Assembly: GCA_003024785.1 (NCBI GenBank)
Contig: PUQB01000146.1
Coordinates: 434,799-498,798 of the forward strand
Direction: 5' to 3'
From: Selaginella tamariscina
Taxonomy: Eukaryota; Streptophyta; Lycopodiopsida; Selaginellales; Selaginellaceae
DNA length: 64,000 bases
Position 1 is the stretch's first letter, and each line of letters opens with the position of its first letter. Made by a program: the position numbers and the translations under genes. The notes beneath the pieces were generated by a model. It did no database searches. It saw only the letters and a list, made by a program, of their open reading frames with translations, and was not told the DNA's origin. Positions 24,819 through 64,000 of the stretch are shown here, in pieces.

Positions 24819-24839
24819 ATTTGAATAGTAAAACCATGT

Positions 24840-38481: not shown

Positions 38482-38801
38482 TGTGATAATTTGACTTTGT
38501 TACATGAATATGAATATGGATACATATACAAATACGGATAAGGATATGGATAAGGATACACATAAGGATAAGGATAAGGATAAGGATCGTTATTAAACTA
38601 AGTCTAGGATAAGGATATGGATATGGATAAGGGTCACAAAATTAGCTAAGTCTAAATTTGGCTTATCTTATAGTATATAAGGGTGAACATGATCTGGGTT
38701 AAACATTCAAGTTCAACGCTGATTTAAGAGCTAAGCCTCTTGTCTTGTTTTGATATATGTAATTTAGCTTGTTTCATGTCTTTTCAGCTTGGTTCCTAAC
38801 A
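38482..38801 (+). repeat. G2b 3' LTR
   Basis: 320 bp, TGTGATAATTTG to GGTTCCTAACA, with a GGATATGGATAAGGATA-type simple-repeat region near the start. It is the uninterrupted counterpart of 9084-9135 plus 14353-14612. Confidence 0.85.
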
Positions 38802-42035: not shown

Positions 42036-43500
42036 AATCCCTTCAACATGGATTTCTTCATCAACTTGCATGTTGCTCGCTTTCCTAAACCAATTGCGTT
42101 CAAGGAAGTGAAGGTACATTTCTTCTTTTATTCTTTTATTCTTTATTTATTTGACTTTTCTTATATTGGAGTTTTTGTAGGTTGGTACAACAGTGGTTCT
42201 AAGGAAATTCTTATTGGATGGTCACCCTTACCAAATGTTACAACTGAAAGTTGTCACCAAGGTTGATAAATTTGAGAACAAGCATTTACTGTTCTAGTTG
42301 GGCACACCTGCCTTAGAAAATGATCATCCAACCTAGACTTAGCAAGTGAAAGTGGATGTAAGTTTTAATTTTCTTTGTGTACCTGGAATGCGCAAAGGAT
42401 GAAGATCAAAGCCCTCCACCATCCCCGACACCATCAAAACCATTGAAAGTAGTCTTGGTATATATTATGATTTTTGCGCTTATAATAACAATATCCTAGT
42501 TCTTCCAACTATGTTAAAAAGGTAGTGGTTAAGTCCGATCAGAGCAACTACAAGCCATCTAAACAGCTGAATTCCAAGGACCAAGTTGAACTCTTAGATT
42601 GTGAGGAGGTACTCTCATATGAGTTTTGTTTGTAAATTTTTACTAAGGATTTTTTTGAAAACATAGGAAACTATTCCTAGCAACAACAATGGAGATGAAG
42701 AATCTGATGATGAACAAAAATCTAGAGATCATAATCCCAGTGAGATTGTTAGTATAGAAGTAGAGACACATCAGTTAGAGACAACTACTGATAGCCCCAT
42801 GGAGAATACAATGCATGTACATGTAGAAGCGGAGATAAATTCTTGCACTTAAACATTTTCATTATGAACTCCTTGTTTCTGTATTGTAGGCAGTTGTTAA
42901 AGAAGATGGTGGGGAGGGTGGTCTGACTGTCACGAACAAATAAAAAGATGACATTCCAATTGTGAATACTATGCAAGTTAGTTTGTATTTGCTTCATTGT
43001 TGTTTTGTAAACAATGTATTCTATTCATGCAAGTGCATAAAGAGGAACTAGCAGAGGAGCCAATTGAGAAGCTGCTTACAACAAAGCAATATCACCGAGA
43101 CCATGTATAAGGATAAGCAGTCGGCTGTAAGTTTTTGGACTGTAAAATTGCAGCCTAGCTAACATTAGAAAAAAAAAATTCTCCTATGTAGCCGAAGTAA
43201 TAAAGCAAGTGAAGATACTACAAGGTAACAAGTGTTGTGATTTAGGTTCCTGTCTAAAGCCTCACAATTTTATAGGTACCTAAGGATTATCAAGGAGCTG
43301 GATATGGACTCCCTCAAATTTCTAGCTAGCATACTTCTTCAACAACTAGTAACCAAATTAAGCCTTGTTTCTATGAAAGTCTTTTGTTGTTGCCCACAAC
43401 TAGAAGGTTGGTTCTAAGGTATTTGTAGTTGTGGCATCTCAACCTATTTCAAATGGGATTTTGAAGATTCACAATGCAAGTTGGTAGGAGAAGCAGTTTG
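42036..43500 (+). pseudogene. Multi-exon gene remnant of unknown family, copy 2
   Basis: Corresponds to 25761-27400. The exon after the TTTTTGTAG acceptor near 42180 gives VGTTVVLRKFLLDGHPYQML. Other pieces are shortened, and the proline-rich repeat seen at 26880-26950 is largely deleted here. Confidence 0.4.
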
Positions 43501-43860
43501 ATTCTTCAATTGTGCACTCCTGATTAGTCACATTGTTTTAGTAACCACTTATGTTACCACTTTAGAAGTCAAAGTAGAAGCCACTATAGGACACTATAAT
43601 TAGTAGTTTTCAATATGTAATCTTGAATCTCACTTTTATAAACCATTTTAAATATTGCAAAGCAGCCTATAATGTAGTTGACATAATATAGCACTTTCAA
43701 AAACTCAAAGAAAAACACTCATTCAAACACTATATTTCACACTTTATGAGCCACATTTGGTTGTCACCACAACTTTCCTCTTTCAAAATCCACTTTCATA
43801 TAGCACTATAAGTAACAATATATTTCCACAATAAAGTCCACTATAAAATCCATGTTCTTC

Positions 43861-44900
43861 TTAATAAGCATTTATATCTTCTTGTACAAGGGTATGCTCT
43901 TGAGCTTTATTAAAACAAATGAGGCATGAACAACCATAACAATGTATAACTTCAGCATATCCATATAATATTATTGTGGACTTATTATTTATGCTAACTA
44001 TGTGACCAACAATGTATCGAGTTGCTCCATCGATTATGGCATGGATGTAAACACCCCAAGGCACAAATTCATAATAAGTTGCATACATATAGATGTAAAA
44101 GAGGCCTTTGAATGTGCTATATACCTCATCGTCCATGTGCCATAAAAGCATATGCCTAGTCATTATGTAAACATATCTTGGAATTCTTTTAAAGACTTCA
44201 TTATTGTAGTGATTCTTCTAATATCAACCTCATTGGAGATGCGCAGCCTATTCAAAATTTGAAAACTTTATTTGATAAAATCTTATACCCTAGCTAGTCT
44301 TGTTCTTTTACAAAGGGATGATAAAAAATGAGTAGTGCAATCACAAGGATATTCTTATAAGTACACTCCCTTCTAGTTAAGACTGATAAACCCTCATTAT
44401 AAAATCGCTTCCCCACACCCAATGCTTTTGCAATGTCCTTCATTAACTATCCTTCTTTCTTCTACTATGAATTATTTTTATACTTAAATTCGCACGCCTA
44501 AAAAGTCTTCTTCCGGGACAAGCAACTCTACCATCCCAAATCATATAATCTAATGTAAGAAAATTAAGATCGAATTTTAATATATGTTGATTTTGTGAGA
44601 TGGACCGTTATTAAATCTTCTTGTTGTTTCCAATAAATAAGATCTTCACTTTTAGCAAAATGGCAATGCCTCAGTATTGTTTGTCCATTCTCATACATGT
44701 GAATAAGCCAAATCTAAACACATGACTTTAAGAATTCCAAATCAAAAAACTTTTCATGTAATCTTTATGTCAAGTCATAACCGTATTACATGTCAATTTA
44801 AAATTTATTGTCATCACCCCACTTGAACATATTTTAAAATTTTCAACAAATAGGGTTTATATTGTTCCTCATACTCCTTCCCTACAATTTGTATTAAATT
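43861..44900 (-). pseudogene. rve-like integrase/transposase remnant, copy 2
   Basis: Minus strand. 44163-43861 gives a 100-residue open stretch with MLLWHMDDEVY, WGVYIHAIIDGATRYIVGH and a VSINNKST segment. This is the W-H-x-D ... IDGATR ... NN pattern of integrase-core proteins found in eukaryotic DNA transposons. Upstream (44170-44900) remnants such as LGVGKRFYNEGLSVLTRREC are readable in shifted frames. It is frameshifted and truncated before the expected catalytic glutamate. The less intact copy is at 27745-28700. Confidence 0.55.
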
Positions 44901-45070
44901 GAGTTCTTTCTATTAAGTTATAATTTATTACATATTTTTGTAGTATTGTAAATACTCTCCTGAAGATGTTCAATTATTTGAATTATTTAATGTTTAAAAC
45001 ATTCATTTATTTTTCTTCTTTAACATATTTATATAAATTAAATTTCTTCAATCTTTGTCTAAATGCAAAA

Positions 45071-45096
45071 TGCATGTTGTAACTAAAATGGCATGT
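45071..45096 (+). repeat. Terminal inverted repeat of Y
   Basis: TGCATGTTGTAACTAAAATG, inverted match to 3327-3352. The undisrupted target in copy 1 is near 28944. Confidence 0.85.
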
Positions 45097-45699
45097 CTAT
45101 AGTCCCATTTCATAATAATTAGCAATTTTAATTATTTAATTAGCATATTCTAATATTAAAGGAATATTCTTTAGAATATATATTTGAAGATAGAATATTC
45201 TATTTTGTAATTGACCCTTTAATAAATTATAGCATTCATGAACCAAAAATTAATAACATTATAAAAGTAGAAGGTATTAAATTATATAATATATTATATT
45301 TAAGATTGTATGGGCCTAATATAAAAATTAAAGAAGAGCATAAGAGGTACATTATATAAATATTGATGTTGTTATTAAAATATTAATATTTAAATATAAC
45401 ATTAATTAAAAATTTGTACTAGTAATAATATATATATATAATATACAAAATCCTATAATAATATAGTGAATCTTCTATATCTTTTTATAAATTTATATAG
45501 TTAAGTAAACAATTTGGTACTATTATTAAAGAGTTTATTATAATTATGAATATTAAATATACGATATTTTATAATTTTGTAATTGCTTTAAGCTTCAGAA
45601 AACATACATTTTCTTGCAGTTTTGTTAATCGTGACTTTATCAACGCTTCTTAACATCCACTTATATCGAATAGATTTAACATTTATAAAACATGTTGGA

Positions 45700-48598
45700 T
45701 CTTTTTGATTAGGAGACCATATTTTCTCTAGGCATCCATTATATCTTTTTGCCTTCTTATGTCGCTTTTTTTGTGATTTAAATATGCAACCTTAACCATA
45801 TTATTTTTTGTGATTATTTCAAGTGTGTCTATAATTTAACCCATCCCAAATGAGATTATATGACACATGGAGTAATAAGGACCATCATTAGTTTTTGAAG
45901 ATCTTACAGTAATCAAAATATGCTTAGGTTTTTGGTTCCTTTGTACAATAAAGTGTGGGTTTCCACTTCCATATCACTACTGGCTTCTATGTCGTATGCT
46001 CAATGATGTCATTTCAATCTCTTCTCACTACCTTGTTTTAGCCAAAAAGAGTGTTGCAATTCTATACTTGTGACAATAGGCCCTTCTAACTCTCGGACCA
46101 TAGTCTCCCAATAGTCGACCACATGCTTATATAGTTCTGAGTAACCAGTTGCCTTATCAGAATTCTTTGGCATCAATTTTTAAACCCATGCCACATATTT
46201 TTTTGATGCCATTAATAATAACCTCTTGTTCCTTGAGTTGGGCACTTAATGGAATAGGTCTGCTTGTCCTTCTGGGAGAAGTGGCTTTCCATTCTCTCCA
46301 CTTTTGAAGAGCATTAACCCCTCTTTTGGTAACCACTCCTGCTCTAATGGCCGTAACTTGTACTGCATAATAGGTATACCATCTCGTATGGAGAAAAAGA
46401 ATTGTAGCGGCACAAGGTGACCAATTAAAGAATCACTCCCCTCTTTTATATACTTCTTAAGAAATTTTTGAAGTCTGGCACCTCAGTCACAAGCAAAGCA
46501 CAACTTTTTTTGGAGATGCAATTTTTAAAAAGATTCATCAAATGCGGTAAGGTAAGTGCACTTGTCCTTTTTGTAGAGTTAGAGACCTTGCTAAAGAACG
46601 CATTAATATCTTCATGAGTGTGACCAACCATAAGAAAATAAAAGTAAGTATGAGTTGAGAAACCCTTAAGTAAAATGATTTACCTATTTTTGTTCTCGCC
46701 TGCACAATTATCCATTTGTAAAAGCAAATGACGAGGAAGCTTATTTGATGTGAGGACACATGTACACTATTTGAGCTAAATACCTCCACTGAACCTGAAC
46801 TCTCAACAGGGCCATCTGTTTTTTGTACAGGCTACTGATAATGCCTCTCATATTCCCAAGTAGCCTCAAGTGCAGACGTGTTCATGAGAGCATTATGTAA
46901 AGGTTGAAGGTGTTATTTCTTCACTTTGAGATCACTGATAGGACATGTTTGTGAGTGGGCTTTAAGATTTCTGAAACACATGGCCAACGACCCAATAGTG
47001 AAATTGGAGTCACTAGACCAATGTGGAAGTGAAAAGTGTCCATATGACTCACAACCGTGTCCATGTGTTAGCACACATGTCAATGAAATCGGAAGTTTCA
47101 TGACATTTCCAAGGCACTTTAGTTACAACGAGCTTTAGAATGCTGGTCTTGAATGATCCATCTTGTCATGGATCAAGCACAGGTACTCTGATGGGCATGA
47201 CATAGAAAGCATGTGGTGTGCATAGTACTAGACCGGCAAGTTTTTGTGCAATCATGTGGGCCTCCATCTTTTGAATGGCAGTGATCTCCACCAAGGTTTT
47301 TGCACAAGCCTTTGGAGCCTTCAATGATGTACAAGTGTCACACTTGGAAAAGCTAAAGTGTTTTGCAATCTCCACATCCTTAAAATGAGTATTCCATATG
47401 TTGTTAAGTACCAGTGCAGATTACTTGCAGCCCATCAAGCTGAGGCACTTGTTCACATCTTCACATAGCTTCAATTGAGAGAATCGAAGGCAAAACCTTG
47501 AGATTTTTCATGACCTGCATTTGTGATTCGGCATTTGTGAGGCATCCTGTCTGCATTTGCTTCCATAAAAGCCTTTAGTATCTCTATGGCTGCCATAATG
47601 TGAGAGCGGGTTTTGACCAAGTGAGTTTCTCATGTACTTAGGTCTGCACTCCATCTAGCCACTCATCCCTCCGATGGTAGAACGTGGTCTTTGGGATCCC
47701 GTATATACTGTACCAAGTTTTGAAGCAGATGGCCACCTTATTAAATATCATGGATGTACTCTGATAACCTGTGTCCGAGGGTCATTCCATCAATATACCC
47801 AGTTAGTGCAGCATATACAAACTCATGCCTTTGCTTTTGGGTGAGCTACGAAAGACATGTCTACATTGGGTAATTTCATTCCGGTCTGCCATCTGACAAC
47901 ACTTCTTCTTGTAGCAGTCAATCGTGGAAATGCTTGTAACACTTTTGAAAGATGTAGAATCCATCTTCACCCTCTTGTTGAAACTTGCAGGGGAAGATCT
48001 ACAACCCATAAATCGCCTTTTTTTACAATAGGACCAATGCAAGGAACCTCTTCAAATATGAGTTGTTCTTCCAGGTTGTTATTATTGAAATCCAACCCAG
48101 AATATGTTGAACCATCTTGCCGTCTTAATTCAGATGTTCGCCACTCACGAGGAATCCAGGATGCAAAGTGCCATTAGATAAAACCTTTGTCACAACTACA
48201 CCCACGAAGTCGAACCCTAGTTCTCTTCTGACACTGCTTCCACTGGATTTATAGCTGTGATGATGCCTCTCCCAACCTCAATCTTATGAAGAAAGAGAAT
48301 CACCTCATCCATCACACAGACAAGCCATCATCTGGAAAACTCGTGCTACTGTTTGTTTGTGACTCTGTATATTCTGTGTCAGCCTTGACTTCATTCAAAT
48401 TCCACAATACATAAGAACCCTTCTCAAATTCCATTCTCGGAACCTCAACATGCTTGAAAATGGTGTTCACCCATACGTAACACAAGATCCTTGGGCAATA
48501 TTGTGACATGATGCATTATCATCTCGAACTTCCACAGTTCCAGTGCCAACTATCTCATTGTTTCGAAGAAGACATACTTTATCTCCAGTATTATACAT
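45700..48598 (-). pseudogene. DUF7869-like transposon protein, frameshifted copy b
   Basis: Starts at 48598 (MYNTGDKVCLLRNN) after a GTGCAG acceptor, in the same way as the intact copy at 62471. A one-base deletion near 48500 breaks the frame early; further shifts occur at 47850 and 47560. Motifs are FSKCDTCTSLK near 47340, LLLQMDNCAGENKN near 46710 and MVGHTHEDINAFFSKVSNST near 46610. The C-terminal region lies at 46350-45780. The DNC-ENKN segment is better kept here than in copy a. Confidence 0.75.
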
Positions 48599-48748
48599 AT
48601 TGTCCTGCACATAAATAATTGTGTTATTTATGATATATGTTTATGCAATATTTCTAAGAATCATAACTGCGGTTGCTTAATAATATGCATGTGCAATAAT
48701 ACATAATTATATATAGATAATATCTCATGCTTTATTAATACAACTGAT

Positions 48749-49675
48749 GGGCAAGATTAATCCTGCCATGACTCCATCCGACGAGGAACGATGGGTGGGA
48801 TTAATCCTGCCGCAGACTCTACCCCTTCGGAGTGAGTCAGCAGGATTAATCCCGTCGTCAACTCTACCCCATCAGAGAGAGTCGGTGGGATTAATCCCGC
48901 CACCGATTCCCTCCCGCGAGGAAGAATCGGCGGATTAATCCCACCGCCAATTCCCTCCCGCGAGGAAGAATCGGCGGGATTAATCCACCGCCAATTCCCT
49001 CCCGCGAGGAAAAATCGGTGGGATTAATCCCCCCTCGTTGGAGAGAGGCGGTGGGATTAATCCCGCCGCGGACTCCCTCAAACGAGGAAGTACCGGCGGG
49101 ATTAATCCTGCCGCCGGATCTTCCTCGTCGGTGAGAGTTGGCGGGATTAATCCCACCGCAAATCCCTCTGACGAGGAAGAGGGGGCGGAATTAATCCCGC
49201 CTACAACACTGACTATTGAGAATAGGCGCGGGATTAATCCCGTCCACAACACTGACGACAGAGAATAGGCGGCGGATTAATCCCGCCCACAACTCTGATG
49301 ACAAGGAATAAGCGGCGGATTAATCCCGCCCACAACTCTCTCAAAAACTATGATTTCAAAGAGATTCGGGATGAATCCTGCCCACAAATATTTAAAACAG
49401 GAAAGTGCTGGCGAGATTAATCCCGCCACCCCTTCTCTGCCTCCTAAAATGGTTGGCGAGATTAATCCCGTAAATAACTCTTTCTAATAAACTCAAGGAA
49501 CTCTTTATTAGTTGAAAGAGTTATCGGCATGATTAATCCCGCCTCTCTTTTTAAGAGACGGAAAAGCATTGCCCGGACTAATTCTACCATAACTATCAAA
49601 GAGATGGTGGCGGGATTAATTCCGCCACCTTTTCGAAGAGGCGAAAAAAAATGGCCGGATTAATCCCGCCGCCCG
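48749..49675. repeat. Palindrome array 1 (about 21 sites, degenerate)
   Basis: Roughly 21 matches to GGCGGGATTAATCCCGCC, many with one to four changes, mostly around the invariant core GATTAATCC. It lies on the 5' side of the DUF7869-like pseudogene (48598), between it and a conserved exon-like segment near 49850. It is the inverted counterpart of array 3. Translated frames give repetitive GGINPA or GLIPP peptides, which are artefacts of the repeat. Confidence 0.93.
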
Positions 49676-51230
49676 GCTAACCGAGAATATTAAGTTAGAA
49701 GTATATTTAAACGGGATAAATCCCTAATAACATATTATAATCCTAATGCATTCCTAAATCTCTAAATTTGAAAATTTAAGAGAGAATGTAAGAGAGTGAA
49801 TCTTTATAAATATATCTAAATTTGTTTATAATACTTACTTGTAAACAGCACTGAAGGCGCTGTGCTTTCTTATAAACAATAGCGCACCCAATTTAATGTC
49901 GCTCCTGAGCTGATCATTAAGAAGAAAAAAGAAAATTTGAAGAGTGAAAAATAAATAAATGAAGAAACCCTTGCTGGAGAAAGAACAAGATCTGAATTTG
50001 AGTGAGAAATTAAATGCATTTTTAAATTTACATGTCAGACCGACAATACTTATGTCAGAAATTCGAAATTTTTAAAATAACAGAAAAGAAAATTTAGGAT
50101 GAGTTAAAACAAATAACCGATAGTTAATATATACTCTCCAATTCCAATGAGTGTTTTAAAATTGCATTTAATGTCATTCAAGTGCTTCAAGCTGTTTAAT
50201 ATTACAAAATTTTTGTAATTATTTTACATTCTTATATTCAAGTATATATTATATATATATATACACTAATACAATAAATAAATTGATATATTATTATGTA
50301 TCATTTAAAATATATTCATAGTCTATTTATTATTATTATTTTCTTAATTACTCGAGTAATTAATTTACATTTCCTAATATTAATGGGATATTCTTTATTA
50401 TTTTCTTAATATTCAAAGAATATTCCAATATTAAACCTGATTATCATAATTAAATTAGTCTTATTCTTAATTATCTTAGTAATTATTCTAAATTCTTATT
50501 ATTTCAAGAATATTCCTATGTTAAACCTTATTATAAATATTAAATTAATATATATTATTAAAACTATATATGACTATATATTAGATAAAATGATGTATTA
50601 TTATGTATAATTTAAAATATGTTCATAGTGTGTATATTAATATCATTTTCTTAATTACTTGAGTAATTAATCTTTTTTATATTAATGCGATATTCTTTAT
50701 TATTTTCTTATTATTCCAAGAATATTTCAATATTAAACATGATTATCATAATTAATTTAGTTAATTATTTCAGTACTTGATCTACATTTGTATATATTAA
50801 TGGGATTTTCTCAATTAATTTCTTATTATTTCAAGAATATTCTAATGTTAAACCTTATTATCAATATTAAATTAATATACATTATTAAAACTATATATGG
50901 CTATATATTAAATAAAATCATATATTATTATGTATAATTTAAAATATGTTCATAGTGTGTTTATTAATATTATTTTCTTAATTATTCGATGTTTGTTTTG
51001 CACACATATATAAACACAATCATAAATTTATATATACACGTGCACACACATTAGAAGTACTTACAGAGACACATATGCACACACATGCACATTGCCCTAA
51101 ACCAAACTTGAGAAATTATATGTTGCTTCTTTATTGAAAAACATCATGTTCAACGCATGTATGATCTATATGTACTCAGTTTATGTGTATGTAACACATT
51201 GAATTTACACATGTAATATATATGTATATC
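49676..51230. repeat. AT-rich internal region of Y, inverted copy of 60110-61680
   Basis: No gene. It contains several diverged units with GAATATTCC, TTAATTACT and TATATGGCTATATATTA-like motifs. The segment near 49845-49930 mirrors the proposed first exon at 61440-61516. 51190-51274 matches (inverted) the repeated tract near 59880-59965. Confidence 0.8.
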
Positions 51231-51274
51231 TGTGTGTATACACGTGTGTATGTATATATGTGTACTAATATATA

Positions 51275-51300
51275 TGCACGTTGTAACTAAAGTGGGCATG
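51275..51300 (+). repeat. Left terminal inverted repeat of X
   Basis: TGCACGTTGTAACTAAAGTG then GGCATG. One or two differences from the termini at 45071 and 3352. 51301-51560 is AT-rich with TTAAT runs and no gene. Confidence 0.8.
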
Positions 51301-51561
51301 ATACGTGAAAATGGGAATATAAAATAAATTACTAATTAATACTTAAGTTTTAATTATTAATTAATCATTTAATTAATATGTAATTAAGCCTTAAATATTA
51401 ATTAATTAATTAATTAATCCTTCAATAACCTTACTTAGTAAGGAATATTCCTAAAATATCTTAGAATATTCATATTATTCTAAAAATAGTTTACAATAAT
51501 GAAGAAATACTATCAAACATAATTACAAATGAAATCATTTTCTTATCAACATGTTAATTTT

Positions 51562-52922
51562 TTATAAATACTTTCTTTCTATCATACAAAGAAATCTTTT
51601 CATTTTGTCTAAATCATCACTCTCCGGATTAATCAAATCATTTTGGTCAATATCTTGATGTTGTTGCCACCACTTAACACTCTCACGAATGCAATTGGGA
51701 GTTGCCATCCTTGTTAATACATAAGATGTGATAAGAGAAGGTCTGCATAAAGGCTCATCTAAAAACTGACGTTCCTTAAGAATAATATTATAAAGCGCCC
51801 GGTTGCTATCCTTCATTTTATAAAATTCAATATCACGAGAAAGAAAAGCTTCAGGAAATGTATGATACGGTGGATACTGCTCACAAAAATTTTCGAGATT
51901 CTTCTTTCTGAGGCACGTATCCAAGTAGTTCACTAGCTCATCCATGATATCGGTATCAGAATATGGATCGAAAGTGATTGGATGAATACAAGCAATGTTT
52001 TGGTTGAGCATAGCCTTCTGAGGAGAGTCGTCTACTACTAACATGTGTTCTTCATTATCCTTAAGCGACTGATCTCCCCATGAGTCCCAATTATTCTTTC
52101 ATTCTTGAAGAAGTATGGCTTGCTTTCCTTTCTTATATTGTGAAATTCGAGAGGTTTATGACACATTCGCTGGTCAAAAATCCAATCTTTACGAATCACC
52201 TCTTCTGCAACACTACAATGTTTCTTAAGTAAACTCAACAGCGGTGTTAAGTTATGAATCTGCATGCATGACCAAATCCCCACAAGCGCACCCATCTCCT
52301 TAAGCTTTTGAAAGAGACGATCCAACCCTGGACGAAAAATAATATCATATCGAAATTTACCATGACAAGGAATGAAATCTCCTTGTTTGATTTCTTTTCT
52401 ATCCTCGGGCCTTTGTCGATGAAGCAGAACACCATTGACATCCAACAACACAATATGGCCATGAGTAACATGAGATAGCGTTGCCTCTTGAATACTTTGC
52501 AAATCACTTGTTTGCTCCCTTTCACATTTATCCGTTGCCACTATCTCGTTGCCTATCCCTTCATCATTTAATTGTACATCATCCTTACAAGATTCAGATA
52601 TTGCATGCGCTGAAGAAATTGATTTCGGAACTGAAGCCAATAAAAATGATGATGAAGTGGCCCCCATGGTAACGATGTTTTGAGCTGCATTATTATCCAT
52701 TTCCTGCATGAACTCTGTCATTCTGACATGTGGCACAAGAAATTGTCGCCAAACCCCTCTCTTACCTCATGGCAATGCTGAAAATCCATGTTCTCAATTA
52801 TTTCATTACATCTGCAAAATGATAATTAGCTGACCTTAAAATTATCAAGGTATATTATTTACCTTGTTAATGTGTGACCCATGTTTGAACTAAAAGCTTC
52901 ATTAATCCTTGAGAATTTATTT
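51562..52922 (-). pseudogene. FCP1/HAD-like phosphatase, one frameshift
   Basis: Main exon 52736-51562. After a low-complexity N-terminus comes LLDVNGVLL (residues 97-105 counted from 52736), the HAD nucleophile motif in the D-x-N-G form. RPGLDRLFQKL and VGIWSCM follow. Then, after a one-base shift near 52075, MLVVDDSPQKAML is read, the C-terminal HAD acidic motif, with a tail to 51562. The order and the DDS motif fit the FCP1/NLI-interacting-factor branch. Two likely upstream exons with GT-AG borders are 52922-52861 and 52805-52759 (CNEIIENMDFQHCHE). Known members dephosphorylate proteins; here the substrate is unknown. The gene lies directly downstream of the ParB-like gene on the same strand, next to the left TIR. 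The single shift may be a sequence error. Confidence 0.65.
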
Positions 52923-52993
52923 TCTGTACAAATATAAAAGAAATATACAAAAATGCCTTATGTTACACTCATTTACAACTATTCATCACTCTA

Positions 52994-55900
52994 TCAATTC
53001 ATTATCAATTCTTCTTCGCTATTACCTTCTGAGTGAGGCGAAGAAGGTCTAAGCCGCTTGTGAGATGGTTCAAGATCTTCTGCATCTTCTATTGATGTTT
53101 CCATGGGTCCTGGAGTGTGCGAATGTTCTGTACTCCTCGAGATAACTTCCGGTCTAATATCTGATTGAAGTTCGTTCTCAGACTCCGAGATTGAACCAGA
53201 TTCACCTTCAGAGCTATCGCACTTATCTGGAGGGAACTTTCTCAAATACGCCTTTATGGATTCGTTGGGGTACTCAGTTGAGACCCAATCTATCCACTTG
53301 TTCAGGTCCTCAACCATGGTCTTATCCTTTTCAACGGCAAACACACATGTATGCCGAAGGTAACACTCCTTCAAGACGGACCCCCTAGTGCAGTAGTCAA
53401 AAACCCACGCATCACTGTGAGGACCCCTGATCAAGTTGACGATGCTCCGTGCCGCTTGACTTGTAATGTTTGGATAACGTACATTGCCGAATACGTCACT
53501 CATACCTATCGGTGTATCGGATGGAGGTTCAGGGCCGTTGGAGTGCAAACAGATGCCTGGCCAGTCATTTGGAAGCTTGAAATTGTTTGGCGCATTCCTA
53601 ACAACCAAGTGAACAACGGTATCAATGCACTTGGGATTAGCATCGTTCATATAAAATCCTGTCCAACGATGTCTATTCTTCTTGGCGAAGGCGAAGGCAA
53701 AAGTATCGGTGACATGAGCAAGAATCAAGAAATAAATACCTGAAAAAGTAGGTATCAGTGAAGAGCGCAAGCATGAATTCAATAATAAATACCTTCTATG
53801 TATATGCTTGCACGGCTAAGTTTCTCCACCAGATCCTCTAGTGCCCTATCTGTCGAAAGATTTTTTGACACCCGCCGATCCATCACGAACAATTGAAACG
53901 GTTTCCTACAAGCAGTGATGTTACCCCATAAAGTCTCCGAATCTAACAACAAACATCTGTAGGGCTTGTCGTGATTCGTAGCATCCTCCTTTATAAGGTT
54001 CAATTCGGTTCTCCGCTGCTGAAGGACTGCCATAAGAGAAGGCGTCATCCCAATGTTCTCCTTTTTGGCGTTGGCGTGCAATAGATTCTTGCCAGATCTT
54101 CCGATTGGTTCACCCATTCGACAAGCATATCATCGTTCGTCACATGCAAATATTTGCTGACCTCTTCATATTTGAAGTCGAGGTCCAACCCAGTTTGTGG
54201 CAGTGTATTCCCAACCACTCCTTGAAATGCCTGACCGTCTTCAACTCCATTGCCTTGAGATGAAAAGGAGAGGTTGGGCTGCTGTTATTAATTTGTAGTT
54301 TGCCATCGATCACCAAATCAGCCAAGACTTCCATCTCCTCCATCGTTGTTCCATTTAAAGGCTTCAACCATGTGAGCTTGAAATCGTTGTCTACATCCTT
54401 TGTAGATTGAACAGACTTAGCCTTCGGCGTCTTACTGGGTTTCTTTGCAGACTTTTCTGAGGGCTCCCCTTCACTTGTCTGCTTCTTCTTCAGTGTTCCT
54501 TTTGAAAAGGATTCCATAATCCCCAACCATTTGGCAAAGATCTTATCTTCGGGGCAAGAAATCAACATCATCAGAAAGGATGTTTCCTTCCCGCCCACCT
54601 GGGCAAAATCAACTGCTGCAATTTCTTCAACTCTCTGAGGAAAAAGACAGATTAATATACCGGCGAGATAAATCCCGCCCAAACAATTTGCTTACCCGGT
54701 ATTCCGCAGATTGTGTATTCCCTGCGGTAGCTCTTTGTGGTCGCTGAAGAGATTCCCACACGCATATATTTTGCTGTTGTAGTGGTTGGTGTCGGCAGCG
54801 TCCCATTCCGCCGATAACTTATGGTACTGCTCGATTGTGAGATTCGGCTTAGCTAAAAACGCCGATCTTTTTGTCAGCTTCTCACGGGTATGCTCGGAAA
54901 GTTTTGTTGCCATCGTTCCTTTGTTGTGTTCCTCGAGAAGTCGTTGGGCTGCCGTTATTGTGTGCTGGCCACTAATGATGTAGTACTTGATAGATTTTTT
55001 ATTCTCCGTCTGAATCTTCATGAGTTGTTCTGGTGTTGTGATCCAGACTTTGTCAGCGCCCTTCCTTCTTTCATAGTATGGACACAAAACAGCATTATGT
55101 GGAACGGTATAAGAATTGTCGTCCTTCATCTTCTCCATGAGCTCAGCTACACGTTCCTGGTTGAGTGGCCTGTAATTGAAGTTTGGGTTGACGCTGCAAT
55201 ATTTAACCCTACAAGGATAAATCTTATCATCCAACATCATTTCCTTGTGACTTATTGCAGCATGAGATGCCACAGGTGCAGCTGACAAAACGATTGATGA
55301 TTTTCTTTTGCGATCCGAATCAACATGTGTGATCCCCGACTGCAGCTGTTCTAGTGTTCTCGGTACACTCTTCCAGCTCCCAAAGCTCCCTAAGCAAATT
55401 GAACGTGATCTGTAGAGAACCTGAGACCGAGCCACCCTCTCAATCTCCATTATGATGTCGCTGTGTTCTTCTTCAATGTGAAGAGGGACGATTGCTCCAC
55501 TTGCTGATTTTCTGTATTGTGAAGCAATATCTCCTGACAATACACCTACTCGATGAGTCTGAAGATTTTCGAAGTAGACATCCAGATGGATCCCCTCCAT
55601 AGATGGGCTTTCGTTGAGTTGAAGAAGAACTCCAAGGTCAACATCATTAGTGAACACGTGAACGTCATTATCCACAAGTCGACAAAACCACCCGAAATTA
55701 ATGTTGTAACTGACGACCTCTGGATCCGAGAACGTGACATTGGATGGAACAAGGCATATGTGTCGAGCATCGTCCAATCTGGGTTCGCAGCCTGCTTTCG
55801 GGTGCTTGACTAGCGAATCTACTTTCCATTGTTTTGCTTGTCCATGAGATGTGACAGAGGTTAATTTGACAGCAGCCATGGTTGCTCCAATGCGCTTCCC

Positions 55901-56116
55901 ATTTATCTTAAAATATGGCCAAGTTGATTCCAGAATCCCCCTGCCCATCTCTTCTCCTGCTCTTGTCTTTAATGTCACCTCAATTCCACATCTGAATACA
56001 AAAATGATTAGTTCAAGTATCCGAGTATAACAGATTTTATTTTAATTCTTACCCAGAATTTGACGACGACTCCATACTAATGACTCGATCTCCTTGTTTG
56101 ATCAAATCGTCCTTCT
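52994..56116 (-). CDS. ParB-like domain joined to degenerate DNA-methyltransferase-like domain
   Basis: Exons on the minus strand are about 56116-56054, 55992-54693, 54632-54120 (one shift near 54200), 54117-53784 and 53737-52994. Counting from the methionine at 55978, residues 254-350 look like a ParB/Srx partition fold: NPNFNYRPLNQERVAELMEK, then KYYIISGQHTITAAQRLL (compare the G-H-x-R-x-x-A-A signature). Further downstream FQLFVMDRRVSKN stands where N4/N6-adenine-type methyltransferases have DPPY. FLILAHVTDTFAFAFAKKN follows. Then comes AWVFDYCTRGSVLKECYL with VFAVEKD, matching the AdoMet-binding motif order of circularly permuted methyltransferases. ParB plus methylase fusions are known in bacteria and phages. 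The catalytic residues are replaced, so a binding role is likelier than methylation. The C-terminus is acidic and Ser-rich. It may be non-functional if the shift near 54200 is real. Confidence 0.55.
54662..54679. promoter_or_regulatory. Solitary palindrome site in an intron of the ParB-like gene
   Basis: GGCGAGATAAATCCCGCC, two changes from the array consensus, sits alone inside the short intron between the ParB exon and the next exon. It is 1.7 kb from the nearest array. Confidence 0.75.
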
Positions 56117-56410
56117 GCAAAATAATACACTATAAATATAAATTATATAAAAACGCACACACACTTGTATAAACCCGAATATACAAAAATAATACACAGA
56201 GAGAAGTAGACGTAATTAACTGTCCGAAGCTCACATTTGTGTTAGTGCAAAAGAAAGATAACATTTCGTTTTAGAACCACCACAAATGTGAGCTCTGGAC
56301 AGTTTTACATAGATTCCTAGCTTTTACTCGAAATATTATGATAAGATGATAAAAGTAAATAAAATGAGATATGCAACTTATATATACTAATACACATATA
56401 TATTCACATG
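56117..56410. other. Region between ParB-like gene and array 2
   Basis: AT-rich apart from the hairpin at 56218-56304. A TTTTGCAG acceptor on the minus strand ends at 56117, implying an upstream 5' exon. Confidence 0.5.
56218..56304. repeat. Long hairpin with 24-nt arms
   Basis: AACTGTCCGAAGCTCACATT plus TGTG (56218-56241) pairs with 56281-56304 with two mismatches around a 39-nt loop. Possibly a small MITE-like footprint or an RNA hairpin inside the first intron. Confidence 0.8.
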
Positions 56411-56414
56411 GAAG

Positions 56415-58025
56415 GTGCGGCGGGATTAATCTCGCCACCCCTTCAATGCCTCCTGAAAGAGTGGGCGGGATTAATCTCGCCACCTTTCTGGAGGCCTTGA
56501 ACGGGAGTGCGGAATTAATCTTGCCACCCTTCTCGGTTCAGAGAGAACTGGGCAGGATTTATTTCTCACACCCCTTCAGTGACTCCAGAAAGGGGCGGGA
56601 TTAATCTCGCCCACCATGTAAGTGATGGTTAAATGAATTTCCCCACCCTTCCCAATTCTCTCCATTGGTATGTTGAAAACCTTCTACGTCTCAGACAGAA
56701 ACGTTTGGGATTGGTCCGACTCACCAATGGAGAAAAAAGGAAGGGTGGCGGGATTCATTCCTCCAACAGGCATTGAAGACTCGGCGGGATTAATCCCGCC
56801 GCCCAGGGCCTTCACTCGGTCCCTATGCGGCGGGATTAATCCCGCCGGACGCCAATTCCCTGCGCGGAATCGGGCGGGATTAATCCCGCCGCCTAGGCAC
56901 TTCAGGCAGGCCAATGGCGGCGGGATAAATCCCGCCCGATTCCGCGCAGGGCATGCGTACGCGGCGGATTAATCCCGCTCCCAGGCCCTTCACTCAGGCC
57001 TTAGTCGGCGGGATTAATCCCGCCGAACGCCAATGCCCTGTGCGAAATCTTGCGGGATTAATCCCGCCGCCTAGGCCCTTCAGGCAGGCCAATGGCGGCG
57101 GGATAAATCCCGCCCGATTCCGCGCAGGGCATGCGTACGCGGCGGGATTAATCCCGCCCACCATGTAAGGGATGGTGAAATTAATCCCACCACCCTTCTC
57201 AGTTCCCTCCATTGGTATTTTGTAAACCTTCTCCGTCTCAGACAGAGTTAGTCGGGATTGATTCAACATACCAATGGAGGAAAAAAAGAAGGGTGGCGGG
57301 ATTAATCCCGCACCGGGTAATGAAGGTTCGGAGAGACTAATCCCGCCGCCCTCTCGTAAATCATGCGCTCACACATATATATTGGCTGCGGCATTTTGAA
57401 CAGGGATGGGTGGGGGCGGGATTAATCCCGCCGCTTATATCCTGCGGAAGTGCCTGAGCGGCGGGATTAATCCGCCGCCCTCCGCGAAGGGCATGAGCGT
57501 GGGGCCGGATTAATCCCGCCGTTCATGTCCTGCGTGAATTCCCTGGGCGGCGGGATTAATCCCGCCGCCTTACGCGCAGGACATGTCATGCAGGCTCTTC
57601 GGTTAGCCTTCCGTGCAGGATCTTTCATGCAGGCTCTTCGGTTAGCCTCATGAGCGGCGGGATTAATCCCCGCCCATCCCCTGTAAATGCCCTGCGCGGA
57701 ATCCGGCGGGATTAATCCCGCCCATTAGGGCCTTCACACAGGCCATTGCCGGCGAGATAAATCCCGCCGCATTCCGCGCAGGGCATGGGTGAGCGGGATT
57801 AATCCCGCCGCCGAGGCCCCTCACGCAGGCCATGGGCGGCGGGATTAATCCCGCCGCTCTTCGGTTTGTCGTAGAGCGGCGGGATTAATCCCGCCGCCCA
57901 TAGCCTGCGTGAAGGGCCTCGGCGGCGGGATTAATCCCGCCGCCATGGCCCCAACCATATAGCGGCGGGATTAATCCCGCCGCCGAGGCCATAAACCTAT
58001 AGCGGCGGGATTAATCCCGCCGCTC
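56415..58025. repeat. Palindrome array 2 (about 31 sites)
   Basis: About 31 copies of GGCGGGATTAATCCCGCC, many perfect. Centre-to-centre distances measured in 57659-58013 are 49, 46, 41, 46, 40, 46, 40 and 40 bp. Spacers are GC-rich with recurring GCGCAGGGCATG and CTTCANGCAGGCC words. A block near 56800-56985 recurs at 56985-57165. The outer copies at the left (56415-56650) are decayed (ATCTCGCC variants). It sits on the 5' side of the ParB-like gene. Confidence 0.95.
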
Positions 58026-58029
58026 GAGG

Positions 58030-58780
58030 GGCTTAGCGTGTGTGCGAGAGATAAAATTAATAAATAAAAAAATTATACAGATAAAAACACACACATATAT
58101 ATATGTGTGTGTGTATATATATATATTATATGTATGTATGTATGTATGTATAGGAGTGTACGTGTGTGTGCAAGAGATAGATAAATAAATAAAATTATAC
58201 AGTACTGGTACACATAATATATGTGTGTACATAGGTATATATATGTGTGTATATGTATATCGTGTGTATGCGTGTGAGCGAAACAAATAAAATCATACAG
58301 ATAAACAAACACACACACACACATATATATACACAGGAGTGTGCGTGTGTGTGCGAAAGATAAAACTAATAAATAAATAAAATTATACAGATAAACACAC
58401 ACATATATATGTGTGTATATAGATATATAATCCATAGAGAAAGAGAGAGAGTCTGTGAATATATAAGCATATATATAAACTAGTGTTGTATGTATGTATA
58501 TATGTATATAGGTATATATATATGTGTATATGTATATTGTGTGTATGCGTGTGTGAGCGAAACAAATAAAATCATACAGATAAACAAACACACACACACA
58601 CACACATATACATACACAGGAGTGTGCGTGTGTGTGCGAGAGATAAAACTAATAAATAAATAAAATTATACAGATAAACACACACATATATATATGTGTG
58701 TATATAGATATATAACCCATATGAATATATAAGCATATATATAAACTAGTGTTGTATACTATTTGTTAATATGCATTGAT

Positions 58781-58834
<54 letters not shown>

Positions 58835-59110
58835 GCAGTGTGCGTGTGTGTGGGAGAGATAGATCAATAAAAAAAATTTACAGATACTGGTACACATAAT
58901 ATATGTATGTATATATGTATATAGGTATATATATATGTGTATATGTATATCGTGTGTATGCGTGTGTGAGCGAAACAAATAAAATCATACAGATAAACAA
59001 ACACACACCACACACACATATACATACACAGGAGTGTGCGTGTGTGTGCGAGAGATAAAACTAATAAATAAATTTATACGCACACTCCTATACATATATA
59101 CATACACACA
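58030..59110. repeat. Microsatellite-rich tandem repeats
   Basis: About six units of variable length, each with GTGTGCGAGAGATAAAACTA, a TAAATAAATAAAATTATACAG stretch split by short indels, and CA/TA/TG runs. Long Tyr/His/Ile-rich frames here are repeat translations, not genes. Confidence 0.9.
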
Positions 59111-59127
59111 CACACACACAGATCTCA

Positions 59128-59330
59128 CCTGTGTGCACAGCCGCCGCCGCCGATTTCACAGCCGCCGCCTCTTGAAACCCTAAGAATATACCTAAACCCT
59201 AAAGGAATTAAATATATATATTAACCCTAATAGAATATTCCTTCTGAGAATATACTTAAACCCTAAAAAGAATAAAATATAGATTCGCCCTAAACGAATA
59301 TTCTTTCATTATATTATTAGCGCGTGCGTG
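59128..59330 (-). promoter_or_regulatory. Possible first exon/promoter of the ParB-like gene
   Basis: On the minus strand a GGCGGC-rich segment ends CACACAG with a GTGAGATC donor at about 59128. Upstream (59170-59310) are four or five AAACCCTAA-type telo-box motifs, common in plant promoters. If real, the first intron spans 59.1-56.1 kb and contains the microsatellites and array 2. Inferred from splice-like signals only. Confidence 0.35.
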
Positions 59331-59510
59331 TGCGTGGGTGTATCACATACACCCCAAAAATATAAATCATGCAGGGATTTAACATGTGTGTGTCCATGAG
59401 AGTGTTAAAGTTTCATGTGTATCAATACATACATACACATTGCATATATTAATACACATAATATATACATACACACGTGTATACACACAGACATACATAC
59501 ATATTACATG

Positions 59511-60090
59511 GGTTTAGGGTTTAGGGTTTAGGGTTTTGGATTTAGGATGGATCATGCATGGTGTGTATGTATGAGAGAAGAGAGAGTGTTGAAAAATTAT
59601 TTTTGTACACATTGCATATATTAGTACACATATATACTTACACATATTATACACAGATATACATACATAGTATATGAGAGAAGAGAGACAGTACATATTA
59701 TGGATCATGCATGGTGTGTATTATACACACAGACATACATACATATTAGTACATAATATTGAGAGACCGAGTACATATTATAGATCATGCATGGTGTGTA
59801 TGTTTGAGAGAAGAGAGACAGTACATATTAACATGGATCATGCATGGTGTGTATGTATGAGAGAAGACAGAAAGTACACATATATACATACAGAGTACAC
59901 ATATATACATGCACACGTGTATACACACAGACATACATACATATTACATGAGTAAATTCATTGTGTTACATATTAGGGTTTAGGGTTTAGGGTTTAGGAT
60001 GGATCATGCATGGTGTGAAGAGAGAGTGTTGAAAAATTATTTTTGTACACACATGTATACACAGGGTTTAGGGTTTAGGGTTTAGGGTTT
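59511..60090 (+). repeat. Interstitial telomere-type tracts within tandem repeats
   Basis: TTTAGGG tandem runs of about three to four units at 59511-59536, 59973-59998 and 60064-60090. They are interspersed with 80-100-bp units containing GGATCATGCATGGTGTGTAT and AGAGAAGAGAGACAGTAC. The stretch from a telomere tract through GTTGAAAAATTATTTTTGTA occurs twice (59541 and 59998). Confidence 0.9.
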
Positions 60091-60109
60091 GCTCCCAACA
60101 AGCTTAATA

Positions 60110-61440
60110 TAAATATTACACATGTAAATTCAATGTGTTACATACACACAGATTGAGTACATATATCATACATGCGTTGAACATGATGTTTTCAATAAAG
60201 AAGCAACATATTTCTTCAGTTTGGTTTAGGGTTGTGCATGTGTGTGCATATGTGTTTTTGTAAGTTCTTGTAATGCGTGTGTAAATTTATGATTGTGTTT
60301 ATATATGTGTGCAAAACAAACATCGAATAATTAAAAAATAATATTAATAAACACACTATGAACATATTTTAAATTATACATAATAATATATGATTTTATC
60401 TAATATATAGCCATATATAGTTTTAATAATATATATTAATTTAATATTGATAAAAAGGTTTAACATTGAAATATTCTTGAAATAATAAGAAATTAATTGA
60501 GAAAATCCCATTAATATATACAAATGTAAATTAAGTACTCAAATAATTAACTAAATTAATTATCATAATCATGTTTAATATTGGAATATTCTTGGAATAA
60601 TAAGAAAATAATAAAGAATATCCCATTAATATAAAGAAGATTAATTACTCAAGTAATTAAGGAAATGATATTAATATATATATTAAAACTATATATGACT
60701 ATATATTAGATAAAATGATGTATTATTATGTATAATTTAAAATATGTTCATAGTGTGTATTAATTTAATATTGATAATAAGGTTTAACACATGAATATTC
60801 TTGAAATAATAACAAATTAATTGAGAAAATCCCATTAATATATACAAATGTAGAATAATTACTGCAATAATTAAGAACAAGACTAATTTAATTATGATAA
60901 TCAGGTTTAATATTAGAATATTCTTCAAATATTAATAAAATATTAAAGAATATCCCATTGATACTAGGAAATGAAAACTAAATACTCGAGTAATTAAGAA
61001 AATAATAATAATAAACAGACTATGAATATATTTTAAATGATACATAATAATATATCAATTTATTTATTGTATAAGTATATATTTATATATATATATATAA
61101 TAAATATACTTGAATACTAAGAATGTAGAATATAGTCTAAAATTTCGTAATATTAAACAGCTTGAATCACTTGAATAACATTAAATGCAATTTTAAAATA
61201 CTCATTGGAACTGGAGAGTATATATGTCAGAGTGTCGGATATTTGTGTCAACTCATCTTAAATTTTATTTTCTGTTCTTTTTTAAAAAATTTGAATTTCT
61301 GACATATGTATTGTCGGTCTGACATGTAAATTTGAAAATGCATTTAATTTCCCACTCAAATTCAGATCTGGTTCTTTCTCCGGCAAGGGTTTCTTCATTT
61401 CTGTATTTTTCACTCTTTAGATCTTCTTTTTTTTTTTTAG
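60110..61440. repeat. AT-rich internal region of X, inverted partner of 49900-51230
   Basis: No gene. Diverged tandem units with GAATATTCTTG, TTAATTACTC and ATATATAGCCATATATAG-like words. It is the reverse complement of the corresponding part of Y. Confidence 0.8.
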
Positions 61441-61516
61441 TGATCATCTCAGGAGCGAGATTAAATTGGGTGCTATTCTTTATAGGAAAGCACGGCGCCT
61501 TCAGTGCTGTTTACAA
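61440..61516 (+). promoter_or_regulatory. Possible 5' untranslated exon of the DUF7869-like gene
   Basis: A segment conserved with 49850-49930 of Y ends TGCTGTTTACAA followed by GTAAGTATT, a strong donor. The next acceptor, TTATGTGCAG at 62464, precedes the start codon. The implied intron (61517-62464) contains array 3. Confidence 0.45.
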
Positions 61517-61682
61517 GTAAGTATTATAAACAAATTTAAAAATACTTATAAAGATTCACTCTCTTACATTCTCTCTTAAAATTACAATTTAGGGGTTTAG
61601 GAATGCATTAGGATTATAATATATTCCGTTAGGGATTTATCCCGTTTAAATATCCTTTTAACTTAATATTCTAGGTTAACCG

Positions 61683-62316
61683 GGGCGGCGGGATTAATCC
61701 GGCCATTTCTTTTTCGCCTCTTCGAAGAGGTGGCGGGATTAATCCCGCCACCATCTCTCGGGCAATGCTTCTCCGCCACTGAAAAAGAGTGGCGGGATTA
61801 ATCCCGCCGATAACCTTCTCAACTGATGAAGAGTTACCAGAATTTATTAGAAAGAGTTGTCGGCGGGATTAATCCCGCCAACCATTTTAGGAGGCAGGGA
61901 AGGGGTGGCGGGATTAATCTCGCCACCACATCCCTGTTTTAAGGATTTGGGGACAGGATTTATCCCGAGATCTCTTTGAAATCATAGTTTTGGAGAGAGT
62001 TATGTGCGGGTTTAATCCCGCCACCCATTCCCCGTCGTAAGAATTGTGGGCGGGATTAATCCCGCCGACTCCTCCGAAGGAGAGCCGGCGGGATTAATCC
62101 CGCCGCCTCTTCCTCCTCGGGGAGTCGGCGGGATTAATCCCGCCGGACTCCCTCCGGGAGGAAGAGTCGGCGGGATTAATCCCGCCGGACTCCCGGGAGG
62201 GAGTCCAAGGCGGGATTAATCCCGCCGACTCTCTCCGAAGGGGTTGAGTCGGCGGCGGGATTAATCCCGCCGACCGTTCCTCGTCGGAGGGATTCGTGGG
62301 CGGGATTAATCCCGCC
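61683..62316. repeat. Palindrome array 3 (about 14 sites)
   Basis: About 14 copies of GGCGGGATTAATCCCGCC, most perfect. Centres near 62057, 62095, 62135, 62177, 62217, 62262 and 62307 are 38-45 bp apart. Spacers here are themselves partly inverted (CCTCCGAAGGAG, CCCTCCGGGAGG). It ends 155 bp before the DUF7869 start codon and is the less decayed inverted counterpart of array 1. Confidence 0.95.
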
Positions 62317-62470
62317 CATCAGTTGTATTAATCAAACATGAGATATTATCTCTAAACATAATTATGTATTATTGCATATGCATATTATTAAGTAACCGTA
62401 ATTCAGATTTCTTAGAAATATTGCATAAACAGATATCATAAATAATACAATTATTTATGTGCAGGACAAT

Positions 62471-64000
62471 ATGTTTAATACTGGAGATAAAGTATGTCTT
62501 CTTCGGAACAACGAGATAGTTGGCACTGGAACTGTGGAAGTTCGAGATAATAATGCATCATGTCACAATATTGCCCAAGGATCTTGTGTGTACGTATGGG
62601 TGAACACCATTTACAAGCATGTTGAGGTTCTGGGAATGGAATTTGAGGAGGGTTCTCCTGTATTGTGGAATTTGGATGAAGTCAAGGCTGACACAGAATA
62701 TGCAGAGTCACAAACAAATAGTAGCACGAGTTTACCAGATGATGGCTTGCCTGCTGTGATGGATGAGGTGATTCTCTTTCTTCGTGAGATTGAAGTCGGA
62801 AGAGGCATCATCACAGCTATAAATCCAATGGAAGCAGTGTCAGAAGAGAAACTAGGGTCCGACTTCGTGGGTGTAGTTGTGACAGAGGTTTCACCTAATG
62901 GCACATTGTATCCTGGATCCCTCGTGAGGTGGCGAACATCTGAATTAAGACGGCAAGATGGTTCAACATATTCTGGGTTGGATTTCAATAATAACAACCC
63001 GGAAGAACAACTCATATTTGAAGAGGTTCCTTGCATTGGTCCTATTGTAAGAAAAAGGCGATTCATGGGTTGTAGATCTTCCCCTGCAAGTTTCAGCAAG
63101 AGGGTAAAGATGGATCCTACATCTTCCGAAAGTGTTACGAGCATTTCCACGATTGACTGTTGCAAGAAGAAGTGTTGTCAGATGGCAGACCGGAATGAAA
63201 TTACCCAATGTAGACATGTCTTTCGTATGCTCACCCAAAAGCAAAGGCATGAGTTTGTATATGCTGCACTAACTGGGTGTATTGATGGAATGGCCTCGGA
63301 CACAGGTTATCAGAGTACATCCATGGTATTTAATAAGGTGGCCATCTGCTTCAAAGCTTGGTACAGTATATACGGGATCCCAAAGACCACGTTCTACCGT
63401 CGGAGGGATGAGTGGCTAGATGGAGCGCGAACCTCAGTTCATGGGAACACTCGCTTGGTCAAAACCCGCTCTCACATCATGGCAGCCATAGAGATACTCA
63501 AGGCTTTTGTGGAAGCAAATGCAGACAGGATGCCTCACAAATGCCGAACCACAAATGCAGGGGTCAGGGAAAATCTCAAGGTTTTACCTTCAATCTACAC
63601 TCAATTGAAACTGTGTGAACATGTGAACAAGTGCCTCAGTTTGATGGGGCTCCAAGCAATCTGCACTGGTACCTTCAACAACATATGGAATACTCATTTT
63701 AAGGATGTGGAGATTGCAAAACACTCTAGCTTTTCTAAGTGTGACACTTGTACATCATTGAAGGCTGCAGAGGCTTGTGCAAAAACCTTGGTGGAGATCA
63801 CTACCATTCAAAGGAAGATGGAGGCCCACATGATTGCACAACAAACTTGCCGGTCTCAGTACTATGCACACCGCATGCTTTCTGTGTCACGCCCATCAGA
63901 GTACCTGTGCTTGATCCATGACAAGATGGATCATTCAAAGACCAGCATTCCAAAGCTCTTTGCAACACCAAAGTGCCTTGGAAATGTCATGAAACTTCCG
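62471..64000 (+). CDS. DUF7869-like transposon protein, intact as far as seen
   Basis: Open from ATG 62471 to the window end, at least 510 residues without a stop. The start is chosen because it follows a GTGCAG acceptor by six bases and begins MFNTGDKVCLLRNN. The N-terminus (about residues 1-75, SCVYVWVNTIYKHVEVLGME then SPVLWNLDEV) resembles the small N-terminal domain of plant transposon proteins such as DUF8039. Next come acidic and basic linkers, the cysteine cluster DCCKKKCCQ, TTFYRRRDEW, VHGNTRLVKT, RMPHKCRTTN, SKCDTCTSLK and LIHDKMD (D at residue 484). The later motifs seen in copies a and b lie beyond the window. It is transcribed outward from the central region, toward the right TIR. 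I infer transposase because all three copies of the element end carry it. The family has no confirmed activity that I know of. Confidence 0.75.
   Translation, partial: MFNTGDKVCLLRNNEIVGTGTVEVRDNNASCHNIAQGSCVYVWVNTIYKHVEVLGMEFEEGSPVLWNLDEVKADTEYAESQTNSSTSLPDDGLPAVMDEVILFLREIEVGRGIITAINPMEAVSEEKLGSDFVGVVVTEVSPNGTLYPGSLVRWRTSELRRQDGSTYSGLDFNNNNPEEQLIFEEVPCIGPIVRKRRFMGCRSSPASFSKRVKMDPTSSESVTSISTIDCCKKKCCQMADRNEITQCRHVFRMLTQKQRHEFVYAALTGCIDGMASDTGYQSTSMVFNKVAICFKAWYSIYGIPKTTFYRRRDEWLDGARTSVHGNTRLVKTRSHIMAAIEILKAFVEANADRMPHKCRTTNAGVRENLKVLPSIYTQLKLCEHVNKCLSLMGLQAICTGTFNNIWNTHFKDVEIAKHSSFSKCDTCTSLKAAEACAKTLVEITTIQRKMEAHMIAQQTCRSQYYAHRMLSVSRPSEYLCLIHDKMDHSKTSIPKLFATPKCLGNVMKLP

Follow-up and report, generated by a model that had tools for sequence, protein, structure and literature searches.

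Arrays of an 18-bp palindrome beside the divergent genes of a high-copy DNA transposon in Selaginella tamariscina: candidate operator clusters of the element

The 64,000-base stretch of Selaginella tamariscina DNA analysed here (contig PUQB01000146.1, positions 434,799 to 498,798; hereafter the window) contains parts of three copies of one DNA transposon, A, Y and X, and three arrays of an 18-bp palindrome, GGCGGGATTAATCCCGCC, that lie beside the genes of this element. Self-comparison of the window revealed three copies of one sequence, at 1-3353 (+), 45,070-48,434 (-) and 62,636-64,000 (+). A 27-bp terminus, ATGCAHGTTGTAAYTAAARTGGGCATG, was found at 3353, where it faces left, and at 45,070, where it has lost one base, and 51,274, the latter two facing right. 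The first (3327-3353, - strand) is the right terminus of copy A, which contributes a T gene and its right end (1-3353, +) and whose other end lies 10.6 kb to the left of the window. The second (45,070-45,095, +, one base deleted) is the T-gene end of element Y, and the third (51,274-51,300, +), ATGCACGTTGTAACTAAAGTGGGCATG, is the left terminus of element X. Empty-site relatives are known for two of the three insertions, at about 28,946 for Y and about 36,469 for A. The empty site for Y is supplied by a diverged segmental duplication (14,345-28,946 and 38,526-45,071) whose pieces are ~87-93% identical.

The earlier note on this DNA had placed all three arrays in one element. Read from the junction at 51,274, there are two elements, a younger X (51,274 to beyond 64,000) being inserted in the centre of an older Y (45,070-51,273 plus a part past the contig end); array 1 is assigned to Y and arrays 2 and 3 to X. 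The nesting follows from the terminus at 51,274 and from the adjoining ~147 bp of Y on its left, which match the unbroken centre of three other copies of the element (E1, E1c and E2a) at 94.6, 98.0 and 97.3% identity. On the same two observations we rejected one giant inverted-repeat element reaching from 45 kb to past the window. The contig ends 1,566 bases past the window, short of the predicted right end of X, and the right side of the nest lies beyond the data. The T gene of Y (approximately 45,100-48,590, -) is decayed: compared with its counterpart in X over 1,497 sites, it shows 28, 27 and 25 differences at codon positions 1, 2 and 3, besides 17 short gaps; C>T or G>A accounts for 50 of the 80 changes, and 12 of the 33 CpGs of the X gene are lost. 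CpG transitions likewise make up 15 of 48 changes in the array sites of Y. Y looks dead and appears to decay like methylated DNA. Between the T genes of copy A and X we counted 4, 3 and 12 differences at the three codon positions in 1,352 sites, together with gaps.

The three arrays hold 21, 32 and 14 sites when up to six mismatches are allowed, bearing out the counts of about 21, 31 and 14 first reported. At up to three mismatches the window holds 59 matches, 18, 27 and 13 of them in the arrays and one at 54,662-54,679; all fall within 48,750-62,316, while dinucleotide shuffles lead one to expect 0.01. Array 1 (48,750-49,670, +; 21 sites, none perfect) belongs to the older element, Y, and is found 5' of its decayed T gene. 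Array 2 (56,419-58,021, +; 32 sites, 13 perfect) lies on the 5' side of a second gene of X, gene P, ~300 bp from that gene's first predicted exon, and array 3 (61,687-62,316, +; 14 sites, 10 perfect) on the 5' side of X's T gene, ~155 bp from the first ATG at 62,471. The description of most copies in arrays 2 and 3 as perfect is therefore right for array 3 and wrong for array 2. The single 18-mer at 54,662-54,679 (+, two mismatches) lies inside what is predicted to be a short intron in gene P. The AT-rich centre of X (58,022-61,686), flanked by the two divergent arrays, carries short TTTAGGG (plant telomere-type) tracts, which fit a plant host, at 59,510-59,546, 59,973-59,998 and 60,063-60,090; such tracts were also seen in two other fetched stretches (L035 and L036).

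To place the site in the host genome we searched the assembly (300.7 Mb, 1,391 contigs) with up to two mismatches and found the 18-mer at 59,903 places; a backward-read control pattern was found at none. Element X contains 38 sites at this threshold (24, 13 and 1), and the genomic count would thus equal roughly 1,600 X-equivalents. Twenty 10-kb stretches were fetched around listed 18-mer sites, six copies with both ends being among them; apart from the window, all examined stretches were picked for holding the site, and the comparisons below describe this sample rather than the genome as a whole. The window and fetched stretches (265,566 bases) contain 375 sites at up to five mismatches, of which 368 are clustered and seven are isolated sites of the P-intron type, the latter recurring beside gene P in six fetched copies. 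In these site-chosen stretches the clusters adjoin element genes and none was seen apart from the element. The genome search that the earlier note had proposed shows the 18-mer to be very widespread, but in the examined stretches it did not have the character of a satellite unrelated to the element.

Read from the left end, the six complete copies have NIF-like frames, then gene P (leftward) and array 2, the AT-rich centre, array 3, gene T (rightward) and the right end. Wherever both arrays are visible, array 2 is 5' of P and array 3 is 5' of T. Terminal inverted repeats of 27 bp are present at both ends in all six complete copies, with 0-5 mismatches. Complete copies are ~12-15 kb long, apart from one of 22 kb that is nested and rearranged (C2:139762-162011), and hold 20-30 sites in array 2 and 14-20 in array 3 (up to five mismatches); in one of them an internal run of N hides array 2. 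Target duplications, judged by eye, are exact and 4 bp long in two of the six complete copies (ATGT and GTAG). A third site reads ATAT if one extra base is allowed, one copy matches at three of four bases and two have no 4-bp match; copy A itself matches at three of four. Sola2 transposons are marked by short terminal repeats and by AT-rich 4-bp target duplications of the form AWWT (PMC3627910); the exact duplications found here, ATGT and GTAG, are not of that form, and ATAT is a possible further one.

Gene T of X (N-terminal part, 62,465-64,000, +) is open to the end of the window. In copy A, positions 1363-1929 match the domain DUF7869 (Pfam PF25273) with an E value of 8.4e-16 and 58.6 bits against a curated cut-off of 26, in keeping with the candidate transposase that had been seen beside the arrays. 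Searching the genome for DUF7869 gave 4,249 candidates, of which 150 were scored, and all matches listed exceed the cut-off; the same search found none in 14 control genomes. Gene P was predicted by eye on the - strand, with exons 1-2 at 54,696-56,115, later exons at 52,994-54,632 and, at ~54,633-54,695, the 63-bp intron that holds the single site. No family was found for either part of P. A genome search with P gave 6,729 first-look candidates; the best 98 were scored, all of them 90-100% identical, and 90 of these best candidates have no stop in the match. From shared differences among six or seven copies, a rough count put the ratio of nonsynonymous to synonymous differences per site (pN/pS) at 0.23 for T and, in three parts of P, at 0.32, 0.18 and 0.37; by this measure both genes show purifying selection. 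In three copies whose T is >99% identical to that of X (E1d, L021-L023; E2c, L027-L028; E3, L029-L031), small indels break the frames at differing places, and these may be assembly errors. The transposon also carries a gene resembling NIF/C-terminal domain (CTD) phosphatases, seen in X as two frames (51,562-52,766, -; Pfam NIF E 3.1e-8 for the first and 0.0058 for the second), whose pN/pS values of 0.95 and 0.78 come from only 4 and 15 changes.

We then considered what kind of site the palindrome is. Among exact half-site pairs at spacings of 0-12 bp in the window and fetched stretches, 160 of 162 form the dyad GGCGGGA-N4-TCCCGCC, with TTAA at the centre in 151 of the 160 and rarely TAAA or TTTA. 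The edges of the site are sharp: positions inside carry 1.3-2.0 bits, values inflated by the choice of sites for their likeness to the consensus, and those outside carry 0.19 on average and at most 0.48 in the adjoining bases. Successive sites are 43-46 bp apart in 251 of 404 intervals (window and fetched loci). When the fetched stretches were scanned without bias for 12-bp palindromes that recur, only this palindrome and one that is AT-rich came up. Of the changes in the stem, 2 are compensated, 21 give a wobble pair and 62 break the pairing; as most thus go uncompensated, we rejected RNA hairpins in favour of a DNA reading. With one dyad at a fixed spacing, such changes fit a dimeric DNA-binding protein. 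Some spacers are themselves imperfect inverted repeats; as a general feature, conserved spacer palindromes were dismissed, mean folding z being -0.96, 0.01 and -0.66 in the three arrays (20, 28 and 13 spacers) against -0.08 for control 27-mers.

Proteins of the homeodomain or GARP type recognise a GATTA/TAATC core, and another host factor of this sort could bind the central GATTAATC. ATTAAT is indeed the best-kept part of the site, at 95-100% per position even in decayed array 1. The centre carries 1.6-2.0 bits per position, but the GC arms are held too, at 1.3-1.8 bits against an average of 0.19 in the flanks, and we regard this explanation as improbable.

The main rival concerns the arms. 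The 18-mer can be read as two inverted E2F cores, so that the arrays would be host E2F/DP site clusters through which an S-phase factor switches the element genes on, and the genome-wide copies may titrate E2F. GGCGGGA-TTAA-TCCCGCC holds the in vivo E2F core TCCCGCC twice (PMC5464667), plant transposons carry cores of this type (PMC12595863, PMC5464667) and those of Brassicaceae are reported to have amplified E2F sites (PMC12595863). The longer consensus, TTTSSCGSS/TYTCCCGCC, is not matched, as AAT rather than TTT precedes CCCGCC and the site has AATCCCGCC. The near-invariant 4-bp spacing and a TTAA centre conserved like the half-sites are moreover more than two independent sites need. The element also differs from the amplified E2F sites in having two cores in one dyad, a conserved TTAA centre and dense arrays inside a coding element. 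We rate an E2F cluster as unlikely, though a serious contender.

A role in transposition itself has to be weighed against the position of the arrays. The earlier note had listed subterminal transposase-binding repeats among its possibilities, and such a transpososome model would have T bind the arrays and bring the ends together. T does adjoin array 3, and one deletion derivative (L035, G000:C585:60001-70000) retains array 3 and T, whereas gene P is missing from it and so is the greater part of array 2. However, the arrays are internal, ~3.8-5.2 kb inside the element ends, and an exact half-site was found in neither terminal 1,000 bp of any of five complete copies. In five of five complete copies a second, 8-bp palindrome, GAATATTC, stands near both ends, ~170 and 190 bp in from the left one and ~90-145 bp in from the right one, and it also occurs two to six times in the element centre; it is the more likely candidate for a subterminal transposase site. 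We rate transposase binding at the arrays as improbable. In CACTA/En-Spm elements, subterminal 12-bp repeats are bound by TnpA (TNP1), the ends read CACTA and target duplications are 3 bp. The present element resembles them in a multiplied candidate binding motif and a possible second regulatory protein, and T has a weak, sub-threshold match to Transposase_23 (TNP1/EN/SPM; E 0.036 and 0.22) in its N-terminal stretch. In a single comparison, that stretch is weakly similar to P (37 residues, 30% identity, E 3e-5). The element differs in its internal arrays, in ends that are not CACTA and in clear target duplications of 4 bp rather than 3 bp.

The arrays might finally be satellite-like, unequal crossing-over having spread a functionless unit and homogenisation keeping the site constant. 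Array lengths do differ between copies, and tandem-repeat units are detectable. The sites nevertheless change more slowly than the spacers, as the earlier note had supposed from their constancy: in four close copies (local identity at least 88%) the core has 26 substitutions in 3,251 positions (0.8%) and the spacer 111 in 6,817 (1.6%), nine of 12 comparisons agree, and only 23 of 5,000 shifted masks were as low as the core. Homogenisation would even out site and spacer alike, and the arrays keep their place 5' of genes; this explanation seems to us very improbable. CpG reaches an observed/expected ratio of 1.0-1.1 in the arrays, compared with 0.74 across the gene P region, 0.37-0.44 for T genes and 0.38 over positions 1-44,000 of the window. 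The richness of the arrays fits recent amplification or low methylation alike and does not separate them.

Our favoured reading, held tentatively and at somewhat under an even chance, is that the arrays serve this high-copy plant DNA transposon as homotypic operator clusters, whose binder would control or un-silence the element's own genes. Each array stands upstream of, or in a 5' intron of, one of two divergent transcription units, P leftward and T rightward. The binder of the 18-bp dyad would be a dimer that the element most likely encodes itself, gene P being the first candidate, and the many bound sites may recruit or hold this binder at the element promoters. The analysis demonstrates the element ends, the gene order, the nesting, the copy number of the site and its slower change relative to the spacers. 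In favour of the operator reading speak the place of arrays 2 and 3 before P and T, the clustering of the sites, the fixed dyad, the slower change of the site, the constraint on P and T, the many stop-free matches to P among the best candidates, the uncompensated stem changes and the parallel with VANDAL. The element might thereby control its own genes or keep them free of host silencing, as VANC does in VANDAL elements. Between the two element-encoded candidates we favour P over T, because P is the second constrained gene, the densest array lies in front of it and one site lies in its own predicted intron. Of the earlier proposal of a protein-binding site, the part that survives is a binding-site-like array tied to a transposon; its ParB/parS version found no support and its subterminal-repeat version is unlikely.

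The label 'ParB-like' given to P rests on a GQHTITAAQRL-type motif seen by eye. Profile tests gave nothing ParB-like, and no ParB-like match was found in Pfam, NCBIfam, PHROGs, PDB sequences or phage records. An hhalign comparison of P with the F-plasmid SopB profile gave a probability of 0.22%, with a profile that is shallow (effective number of sequences 1.4) and weak for distant kin. A methyltransferase-like reading of the late P exons, suggested by two motif look-alikes, was dropped when Pfam showed no match and the PDB sequences yielded no more than a designed repeat protein. No protein relatives of P or T were found at E ≤10 in a set of 5.8 billion proteins, and none in viral contigs.

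Several points weigh against operator clusters read by the element's own protein. No DNA-binding domain was recognised in P, and the two AlphaFold models are both unusable, with mean predicted local distance difference test scores of 32.8 and 34.8. Both half-sites are exact matches to the short E2F core of the host. Between close copies the constraint on the palindrome amounts to just twofold and derives from four copies in non-independent pairs, with three of the 12 comparisons reversed (X/E1d, array 2: 1/374 versus 0/786) or tied (two). The wider gap over all pairs (array 2, core 215/5730 versus spacer 1183/10210; array 3, 157/5301 versus 1178/8299; one of 36 pairs reversed, E1/E1c in array 3) is partly alignment error, as spacers of different units can align together. 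We found no element family with another palindrome in which site and protein might be seen to change together; the two stretches fetched for it belong to the same family.

VANC proteins of Arabidopsis VANDAL elements bind short motifs (YAGTATTAY, AGTTGTCC) in noncoding tandem repeats that expand and contract, and induce loss of silent marks (PMC5735166, PMC10398659). The two systems share a transposase gene with a further gene and a short motif multiplied in noncoding element DNA, and differ in that the motifs are short there and an 18-bp dyad here. The transposase-like gene here has DUF7869, and Pfam, through which alone homology to VANC was compared, gave no Mutator-like model. Since the transposase belongs to another family and the binder is a candidate only, we do not class the element as a VANDAL. 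It is conceivable, though we consider it doubtful, that the element has evolved, independently of Mutator/VANDAL, its own means of anti-silencing or self-activation: a DUF7869 transposon would encode a protein of no recognised fold, P, that reads an 18-bp CpG-bearing dyad in dense arrays 5' of its genes. The host genome would in that case have acquired ~60,000 operators, spread genome-wide and serving a single selfish regulator.

For a site of regulatory type, an 18-bp dyad with ~60,000 near-copies in 300 Mb of plant genome has been multiplied to an unusual degree. Were the element's own protein to bind it, plant transposons would have one more, independent example of regulating themselves or countering silencing in a sequence-specific manner, and the naturally dense operator array could be put to use as a tool. 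Were E2F to bind it, the element would stand as a strong example of a transposon that is coupled to the host cell cycle or titrates its factor.

Neither the 18-mer nor its 16-bp and 14-bp cores had a match in the open-access literature text searched. One viral contig contains a single copy of the 18-mer, and paired copies were found nowhere in the searched collection of genome contigs. At G000:C3:91360-91583, two inward-facing terminus-like sequences with five mismatches each lie ~220 bp apart; they weakly suggest a possible short non-autonomous relative of the element. Elsewhere in the window, ~110-bp tandem repeats occur in repeated blocks at 4169-4602 and 21,752-22,186, and longer related runs lie to the left of the window.

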